A DNA stretch of 64,000 nucleotides from Ectocarpus siliculosus (Eukaryota > Sar > Phaeophyceae > Ectocarpales > Ectocarpaceae), in the NCBI GenBank assembly GCA_000310025.1, contig FN649731.1, positions 3,485,065 to 3,549,064 of the forward strand, written 5' to 3'. This document shows positions 6,036 through 23,287 of the stretch, in pieces (position 1 is the first letter of the stretch; every line of letters starts with the position of its first letter). A program made the translations under genes and the position numbers. A model generated the notes under the pieces. It ran no database searches. It was not told where the DNA came from and saw nothing but the letters and a program-made list of their open reading frames with translations.

Positions 6036-9000
6036 GTGATGGATGCGCCTTGAATCTTAGGTCGACAAGGTGCATCAGGGTGTGCATGTTTTGCTGATGC
6101 ATGGCTTCATGCATTGATTGTCTGCTTGAGTGCTGCCTGGAGTTGAGCTTGGAATCGATTGGTGGCTTGATGCTGAGTGTCACAGGTGTTTATGCGATGA
6201 ACAACGCACGTCGAGTTTGGTTTGGTGTGTTTCAGTCTGCTCTGATGGCATGCCCTCCGTTCCCGGTGACGGCGAGAGTGGCATGACACCAATGACGGCT
6301 TTCATGTGGAGCGGCGCGTGCACTTGTGTTTGTCGATGGTCAACCCATGTCGTCGCTAACTACCTCCCCGTAAAGCCTGCGCTATTTTACGCTTCAACTT
6401 GTATTTACCATGTATGTCGGGATCGTTTACCGTGTGGTAAGGGCCCTCCATAGAGCTGTTACGCCCTGTGTACATATAAGAGTTATGCACTGCTGTCAAA
6501 CACATCGTCGTGCTCGACTCGACCGAGCATTCAACTCCCGACGAACCCCGATCCAGGTCGTTGCGCTCTGTGGACACCTGCCGTTGGTGCTCGCTATCGT
6601 GGGTTCCATGCCCGTCGTGAAAGGGAAGGGTTTGAGAGCTGGGGCCTGGGAGGAACTGGCCAAAGAGTTGGAGAACGTGGCCAAGAAAATGCGAGCCCGG
6701 GGCGAGCAGTCATCGTCTATCAAAGTTGTCCTTGAGACCAGTTTCGACTCCTTGGCAGTTCGGAAACAAGAAGAGTTCCTGAAGATGGCTGTGTTGGCCG
6801 CGGGTGCTCTTGCGCCGATCGAGATGCTGCGCAATCTGTGGGAGATAGGGGTACGTTGCGGCGTCATTTTTACCAGGTAGTTGGAAGTCTTTGAACGGTT
6901 TGGAAACCATGTGCCCGTTATAGATGTACGCACGTCTAGCGGGTTGCGCGACAGAGAGCGCGTGCCCGGTTTCTACGGTCTTCGAACTGCTGTGCTGCGT
7001 GACGACCCTAGTTCATGTCGTTCCGGTGTTACGTGTATCTGCAGGACGCAGAGAGTACGCGAGACGAAGCTGAGGGTCTGGTGAGCAAATGCCTTCTACA
7101 CGCTGTGGGTGGTGGTGGTGGTGGTGGGTACCGTGTGCACGACCTGGTCCTGGAGTTTGCGAAGACTGGCATTAGGGCAGAGAAGGAGGCGCTGGAAAAG
7201 GCCACATCGCTGCAGGCGCAGTACCTCGGCAGACTGGACGTGCTCAAGAGTTACGGAAACCCGGAGCACGGCGCTGGAGACCAAGGCCTTTTCTTTTTGG
7301 ATGCCCTCTGGCGCTCGGTGAAGACGCTCTCGGGGGACCCTGAGCTGGAGGTTGCCTCGTATCGCGCCAGCCTCGGGGGGTTGAAGTCATGCGAGGCAAC
7401 GGAAGCCGTGGCGAGATCCTGCGGATCTGTGGGTTTCTTGTTCAACATTCAGGTACGGCAGATGTTTTGGGGGGGATTCTGCACTATTCGGAGGGTGTAC
7501 GTTGTCCAGTTTAGTTCAAGGGTGCTGCGCGGACGACCGCTTCCGGCGGTCGCCGCCACGCTAGTAGCCTGCATGGCGATGTCAAGCGCGTGCGGGTTGA
7601 GGTTCGACATGAGAGAGAAAAATGTGTTGGTAGGGTCTCGGCGCGTGTAGTGCGTATTGACGCTCGCGTTCTCTTGTGGACGGCGTTTCTGCACGAAGGA
7701 GTGTCAGAACATTTGCTTGTAGAAGTATGAATTTGAGAGTGAGACCAGGTCAAGGGAAGAAGAGCCTAGCCCGTCAAGTCCATCACACCCATCACATATG
7801 CGTAGTCCCCGGAGATGTATGTACCGTCGCTGTACACCGTGAGGTTGGAAATATGATTCTGTCTGGCCAAGCGTTTGTTTTTTGCAAGGCTTTCGATGAC
7901 AATCGTGCTCGCAACTGTTGGTTATTCCAAGTGTTGGCGAGTCGGCGTCCCTTACACCAACTGGCAAAGGAACGGGCACCTTGATTTGAAGACGAGAGAT
8001 GAGCGTCTGTTCTCCAGATGGCATGTGGCTGTCGTTCTTGATGAGAGAGGTCTGGTCAATTTGTCTACAGGAGTGGCTAGGGTTAAAGAAAGGGTCGTGC
8101 CAACCCAGTATCTCTCTTTTATATCTGTTGTATGTTTTATATATGGTATCGTTTTGGCTGCGGTGTGACAGAATATTCCCTTACAACCATATCTCTCTTT
8201 AAGAGAATGTTCTGTAGTACCGTAGCCGAAGCCTCTCGTTCCAACTACAGTATGTGCCGTTGTACATTCATGTCACATGTATCGCAGCTGGCGCCAGCAC
8301 CTTGGGCTAGCCCCACACACCGCTTTGTCTGTCGGTTGGCGAGCAATATTGACCCCAGGTGCTTGGTACGTTCTTGGTACGGTACCTGTGTTGGGAAATA
8401 TATCATGGTGTTTCCGCGGCACATTTGTTTGCACGTTGATAAACTGTAGTTTTGTTGCCTTGTTCAAGGTGTGCTGATTTCATACTCGCACCTCCTCTAG
8501 AACTACAACTCGAGCCCACCGATGGACCGGCATCCACGAGAATAATCCACCCACACTTTGATGTGGCTTCCAGGAGCTCGATAAGAGAAAACGTACGAAA
8601 TATGACAAAATCCCTTCTAAAATCGATTTTGGTCGTGCCAAGCCGGTTCAACTCTCTTTAATCGGTAGTTCTCTCAATGATTTCCTCTTCAACCGTAGGC
8701 GCTATTGTACCCATGTTAGTTTTTTCCCTTCTGGGTGAACCACTACCTTGACACAACACACTGTTTTCGCTCAGGGCAAGTACGCTGAGGCCGAACCACT
8801 CTATGAGAGGTCACAGGCCATACAAGAGAAGGTCTTCGGTCCGAAGCATCAGGTCGTGGCTACGTTGCTCAACAACCGGGCGGCGTTATTTGAACGGCAG
8901 GTAAGAGCCAAACGATGCTTCTAGAAGAAGAATTCCTCCGCAGTTTTAGATCTAATGTTGACTCCGACTCTTTTCCGTACTGTTCATCACATGTCTTAGT

Positions 9001-23287: not shown

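Follow-up and report, generated by a model that had tools for sequence, protein, structure and literature searches.

The closest described relatives of the locus analysed here are the NB-ARC-TPR genes of Ectocarpus, which in work by Zambounis et al. from 2012 and Teng et al. from 2023 reportedly have one repeat per exon, undergo exon shuffling and are proposed to be immune receptors. Our locus resembles them in having an NB-ARC domain followed by TPRs, one repeat per exon, many paralogues, exon shuffling and a proposed role as immune receptor. It differs in that here the moving unit was mapped, running from a short core in one exon to the core of the next, decayed cassettes were charted and an allele with a nonsense codon was found. 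The bacterial vlsE gene of Borrelia, which is altered by gene conversion into one expression site, is similar in that its cassettes are bounded by a short repeated sequence; it differs in being bacterial and in converting into that single site.

The exon array itself is already published as the NB-ARC-TPR system (Zambounis 2012, Teng 2023). Brown-algal LRR-ROCO genes are described, in the parts of PMC11378527 used here, as carrying each repeat in an exon of its own (72 bp, phase 2) and as showing both exon shuffling and alternative splicing. Our locus is like them in the first two respects, with alternative splicing being a ROCO feature, and differs in that it has TPR and NB-ARC where they have LRR and ROC-COR (same parts of PMC11378527); a COR-A search made for this comparison gave one match. 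The same parts of that source state that no recombined loci and no site-specific recombinases had been reported for either ROCO or NB-TPR genes, and cite the proposal of somatic recombination that Zambounis et al. made in 2012 for brown-algal receptors. The nearest working analogy is the lamprey VLR system, in which, according to the excerpted text of PMC11335541, assembly uses partial cassette templates with several priming sites, and repeat cassettes are likewise joined in new numbers and combinations. The lamprey process has been shown to be somatic, and its donor cassettes flank one incomplete gene (same excerpt). Unlike it, the brown-algal array is known from one germline assembly and its exons are split by introns.

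We analysed a 64,000-nt stretch of the Ectocarpus siliculosus genome (C6:3485065-3549064), here called the window, and number positions from its first nucleotide. Its plus strand was scanned from 3000 to 60000 for AG, 126 nt of open frame with a [GDE].[YF] start, and GT (or GC). Fifteen of the 16 matches were real TPR cassettes; the match at 11326 had no TPR by eye and was discarded. The scan thus confirmed the 15 intact TPR exons, 126 nt each and in phase 0, that an earlier note on this DNA had placed at 8775-22733. Every cassette starts with G-K-Y and finishes in Q. They lie 3' of the NB-ARC exons and 5' of the terminal TPR exon, and the three upstream exons and the last exon have phase 0 joins too, as read from the sequence. 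The exons are listed below; all cassettes rest on the scan and on DNA identity, and further evidence is given in brackets.

4980..6035, + strand: exon 1, N-terminal helical region and first part of NB-ARC (frame and donor read; Pfam NB-ARC, E 4.8e-19), with motifs that we take to be the P-loop and kinase-2
6557..6850, + strand: exon 2, remainder of NB-ARC (splice sites read; matches homologues; weak Pfam NB-ARC match, positions 186-247, E 0.025), including a presumably GLPL-like region
7045..7452, + strand: exon 3, post-NB-ARC region ending in FLFNIQ before GT (by-eye comparison with homologues), with a motif that we assume to be MHD-like
8775..8900, + strand: TPR cassette 1, type A (also Pfam)
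9207..9332, + strand: TPR cassette 2, type A
10055..10180, + strand: TPR cassette 3, type D
10488..10613, + strand: TPR cassette 4, type A
11900..12025, + strand: TPR cassette 5, chimera with a D-like start and an A-like rest, switching near nt 30 by eye (also alignment and peptide)
14026..14151, + strand: TPR cassette 6, type A
15313..15438, + strand: TPR cassette 7, type A
15588..15713, + strand: TPR cassette 8, third type (B)
17100..17225, + strand: TPR cassette 9, type D
17506..17631, + strand: TPR cassette 10, type A
20988..21113, + strand: TPR cassette 11, type D
21424..21549, + strand: TPR cassette 12, type A
21809..21934, + strand: TPR cassette 13, type D
22217..22342, + strand: TPR cassette 14, type A
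22608..22733, + strand: TPR cassette 15, type D (also Pfam)
23138..23287, + strand: last exon, with a TPR-like repeat at the end of the array and the stop codon (matches to Pfam TPR_10 and TPR_12 fall below the curated cut-offs)

Pfam TPR_12 was matched by both cassettes tested (1 and 15), and the tested piece of exon 3 gave no Pfam match. Structure matches of the predicted model indicated an Apaf-1-like fold for the NB-ARC of this gene. The N-terminal region was modelled with a pLDDT of 40 without an alignment and a mean pLDDT of 77 with 36 sequences; because the listed structure matches covering this region mostly had an rmsd >20, no known fold was given to the domain.

By DNA identity and peptide, the cassette order is A A D A D/A A A B D A D A D A D. 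The alternation of types A and D described previously held in part: both types are real clusters and alternate strictly in cassettes 9-15, but not elsewhere, where cassette 8 represents a third type and cassette 5 combines D and A in a chimera. We therefore rejected alternation as a rule for the whole array. The type of cassette 8 recurs directly after the first cassette in the homologous proteins P0012 and P0015, and the focal order as a whole was repeated in none of 24 selected homologous proteins, the gene models of which are partial. With cassettes 5 and 8 excluded, averaged dN/dS, which bears on diversifying selection of the TPRs, was 0.30 for the eight type-A and 0.47 for the five type-D cassettes.

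The longest gap between intact cassettes (17632-20987) contains a 67-bp tandem repeat in three copies (20312-20508). An intron segment of ~0.8 kb occurs four times with ~72-79% identity (about 10915-11778, 12978-13869, 14172-14960 and 16029-16900), which suggests that bigger duplications enlarged the middle of the array. An assembly gap of 100 N (25872-25971) lies ~2.6 kb 3' of the gene.

The assignment of the locus to the NB-ARC-TPR family stood: we found an NB-ARC domain, C-terminal TPRs of 42 aa with one per symmetric exon and all in the same phase, and many paralogues in this genome as well as relatives in further species of Ectocarpus. We place it in the known brown-algal family. Exon 1 had 112 homologues among 7999 scored, and all those with an organism name were from brown algae; the best full-length homologue of the NB-ARC exon was from Ectocarpus sp. 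12 (93% over 95%). The same genome gave 27 NB-ARC matches, in some cases two halves of a single gene. It also gave 616 cassette candidates, 150 of them scored. Our cassette sample comprised the window and 24 further stretches of the genome, 23 of them with intact cassettes, and contained 169 intact cassettes and 139 further partial matches.

A second NB-ARC-TPR gene in the window (31176-33602, - strand) is a single 808-aa open frame in which one exon carries the TPRs and the C-terminus is hydrophobic; it is 94% identical to an Ectocarpus sp. 4 protein and offers a possible intron-less comparison for the core. An open frame at 28675-29532 (- strand) has a helical-looking N-terminus like that of an NLR N-terminal exon by eye. 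In P0114 of Ectocarpus fasciculatus, a TPR array of the same kind follows an N-terminus for which no NB-ARC domain is listed and which looks RelA/SpoT-like by eye, and the arrays of P0113, P0115, P0155, P0188 and P0222 begin at about the same residue. Two loci of the sample are very regular: in L024 a live exon alternates with a truncated relic every ~330 nt, and L026 consists of six strict pairs of two exon types.

The cassettes share a 24-bp core, CTCAACAACCGGGCGGGGTTGTTG, at cassette nt 94-117, ending 9 nt before the exon end.

8868..22724, + strand: core copies, 15 matches with at most 3 mismatches (0 expected by shuffling)

Intact cassettes hold fourteen of these matches, and the fifteenth belongs to a partial copy at 15493; cassette 10 is beyond the mismatch limit. 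Codons 32-39 read CTC AAC AAC CGG GCG GGG TTG TTG, one codon being far preferred compared with the same amino acids elsewhere. Across the 169 cassettes, codon identity (observed/expected) was 0.70/0.37 in codons 32-39 and 0.46/0.43 in the remaining codons, with codons 1 and 42 excluded; in the focal array it was 0.85/0.41 in the core and 0.54/0.50 in the rest. We conclude that the core is under strong synonymous constraint, beyond what the protein needs. A near-exact core pattern with two ambiguous positions occurred at 47 places genome-wide, all those found being at or beside cassettes, and the reversed pattern, used as control, at 0 places genome-wide. A literature search by title and abstract, with Zambounis 2012 and Teng 2023 outside its reach, gave no publication on an exon-internal core, and we know of no earlier description of the core-to-core unit or of its constraint.

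The identity of the core at synonymous sites could stem from a role in splicing, from a special site or from recombination itself homogenising the copies. The core may have been kept for splicing, as an exonic enhancer near the donor, or as an RNA hairpin; protein diversity would then come mainly from alternative splicing, and the core would become a recombination substrate as a by-product because it is identical everywhere. In line with this, the core stops 9 nt short of the exon end, the codons adjoining the splice sites are constrained too (0.51/0.27 for codon 1 and 0.95/0.54 for codon 42), and the constraint persisted in 45 representatives <75% identical from outside the shuffled arrays and the window (0.61/0.37 in the core, 0.42/0.40 in the rest). 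Alternative splicing is also, in the cited parts of PMC11378527, the simpler explanation of ROCO diversity. The consensus core is a quasi-palindrome, in which 8-bp arms form a perfect inverted repeat around a 6-nt loop. However, its stem pairing was no better than column composition predicts (1037 paired cells and 1028 after shuffling, maximum 1048): shuffled right arms paired equally well, so the base-paired stem found no support as the conserved feature and the letters, not the stem, seem to be kept. Selection for splicing or a hairpin would also leave the inversions and permuted modules reported below unexplained, being a cause of core identity and not a full alternative. We regard it as a real possibility, though somewhat doubtful.

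To map the moving unit we used five sister arrays (C2 at 8.31, 8.81 and 8.84 Mb, C6 at 3.47 Mb and C10 at 2.56 Mb), which belong to a single assembled genome and were selected after their similarity had been seen. Cutting at the cores gave 74 modules (one of them from L022), each consisting of the 3' tail of an exon, the intron and the first three quarters of the next exon. Forty-eight of them fell into 13 families in permuted order (single linkage at >=92%; 87-100% identity within families). In a linkage test with 75 units of the five arrays (gapped; the ungapped version agreed in direction), the same body had the same upstream head in 83/123 pairs and the same tail in 18/123, and the same tail had the same next body in 43/73 pairs and the same own body in 18/141. 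Among 19 module pairs with >=97% identity over >=150 nt, both flanks were different (<85%) in 12, both were the same in 2 and 5 were mixed; in one example, a 211-nt match between two contigs reached 100% identity, and its flanks 47% and 46%.

A phase scan over 49 segments counted pairs with >=97% identity. Cutting at the core centre gave 23 such pairs, and cutting at the exon end, which is 20 nt away, gave 21; cuts at nt 146-186 in the intron gave 7-8 and cuts near the exon start (nt 16) gave 3. The scan rules out exon starts and mid-introns and by itself cannot split core from exon end; these two were told apart because 16 of the 45 unique right-hand joints lay at nt 93-118, with 9 at nt 118-130, 13 at nt 130-186 and 7 upstream. 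In the recently rearranged sister arrays, the piece that is copied and re-ordered is mainly the core-to-core module, not the exon, and the previous claim of the exon as moving unit was not upheld there. Exon shuffling among paralogues was found in these five arrays, with this module as its main unit.

Classical exon shuffling by recombination in introns, with the exon as the unit, would fit the symmetric phase-0 exons and the 20 of 45 unique right-hand joints that lie in introns. Against it, the body of an exon shows little linkage to its own tail, whereas a tail is linked to the body that follows it, and cuts near exon starts gave only 3 identical pairs compared with 23 at the core. For the five arrays it is disfavoured, and as a general account we find it highly improbable. 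Nearly as improbable is that errors of assembly or base calling produced the permuted modules, inversions or stop codon. Assembly of repeats is difficult, and L009 and L015, both among the five arrays, contain runs of N; yet most shared modules are 166-255 nt long and thus shorter than Sanger or long reads, and the core-codon constraint and the unlinking of tail and body are statistical and independent of any single joint. Mini-modules of ~69 nt (tail and short intron without exon body) between two cores were seen in L011, L012, L013, L015 and L021, with eight copies in one family.

L010 and L022 are the two places where cassettes on the opposite strand were found beside plus-strand ones; the remaining opposite-strand matches are in the window and are part of a single-exon gene. 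The two inverted pieces are one whole module each, from half-core to half-core (221/235 and 226/237 positions). Their left joint consists of CAACAACCGGGC and its own reverse complement, exact in one and with one mismatch in the other, and no third place with it was found in the genome at up to 3 mismatches. The right joints of the two inversions are a few nt apart by eye. L009/L010 (C6:3463501-3483500), just upstream of the window, is an NB-ARC-TPR array with a 100-N gap and one inverted module.

When crossovers were assumed to be uniform, joints were strongly concentrated: 36/69 right ends lay in nt 102-120 (9% expected) and 48/81 left ends in nt 86-130 (11% expected). Under a null in which crossovers require 6-15 bp of local identity, 35-43% fell in nt 93-118 and 10-14% in nt 118-130. 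This control takes away most of the surprise, and a special hotspot was not accepted from joint position alone: since the null reproduces the joint positions, they prove no special signal, and short-homology recombination suffices to explain them.

These controls bear on the idea that the core is a recombination site kept for that purpose, at which a nuclease or recombinase would break and join; modules excised between two cores would be rejoined without fixed order or orientation, sometimes inverted, within loci or between loci on different contigs. This might happen in somatic cells, which would be in keeping with the somatic recombination that Zambounis et al. proposed according to PMC11378527. 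Such a dedicated site would agree with the synonymous constraint across all 24 bp, the non-pairing loop included, with the quasi-palindromic consensus, with the occurrence of the core at or beside cassettes only, and with two inverted single modules that have core-bounded ends and nearly the same left joint, the sole two found in the genome (<=3 mismatches). However, local identity is enough to predict where the joints fall, pairing in the stem does not exceed what column composition gives, the right-hand joints of the two inversions differ, and template switching at inverted arms would yield inversions too. We consider a dedicated site unlikely.

Taken together, the data from this one genome assembly suggest that the locus belongs to an NB-ARC-TPR family in which arrays probably scramble by short-homology recombination or template switching between cores. 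Arrays would both grow and be re-ordered in this way, at least in the germline. Because every core has the same codon phase, core-to-core joins would preserve the frame and could give new combinations of TPR surfaces with little damage. Modules with a donor-less tail would produce dead cassettes that may later decay into relics such as those in the focal introns.

Between the intact focal cassettes, nhmmer with a cassette profile detected 20 decayed ones, which the earlier note does not mention; the E value was <= 0.0041 for 19 of them and 0.023 for the remaining one.

9003..22528, + strand: 20 decayed cassettes in introns (nhmmer, alignment), at 9003, 9434, 9643, 9892, 10285, 10686, 11750, 12751, 13841, 14986, 15139, 15490, 15818, 16943, 17326, 20157, 21227, 21654, 22033 and 22447

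The acceptor AG is gone in 16 of the 19 with a readable start (by eye), and the donor-less tail motif TTGAGnAATTGTTnnTCC ends 8 of the 20. This motif has 11 matches in the window (1.5 expected), 8 of them within the array. At other loci a similar tail follows many truncated cassettes and is absent from some; there, 49 of 233 matches reaching nt >=110 stop at nt 114-121.

An in-frame TAG at 6000-6002 interrupts the NB-ARC exon of the focal gene, at a site that is a sense codon in five paralogue loci and missing in one. The gene has no continuous reading frame unless an upstream in-frame donor is used. The nonsense codon and the decayed cassettes make a working receptor doubtful at this allele, which the earlier note had treated as an NLR-like gene. 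Recent shuffling at this locus is not borne out either: its cassettes are 63-93% identical to each other, whereas modules in the sister arrays reach 100%. The joints were mapped in the five sister arrays, and the focal chimera, cassette 5, switches outside the core. We conclude that the focal array is probably an old, quiet product of module recombination, possibly in a null allele.

For the family, short-homology recombination in the germline alone would explain both the frame-safe diversity of the receptors and the decayed cassettes in their introns. If the core were a site kept for recombination, the family would be a split-gene receptor system with its signal inside the coding sequence. 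The mapped unit and its 24-bp joint provide a direct assay of reshuffling during life, by counting core-to-core joints in clonal tissues.
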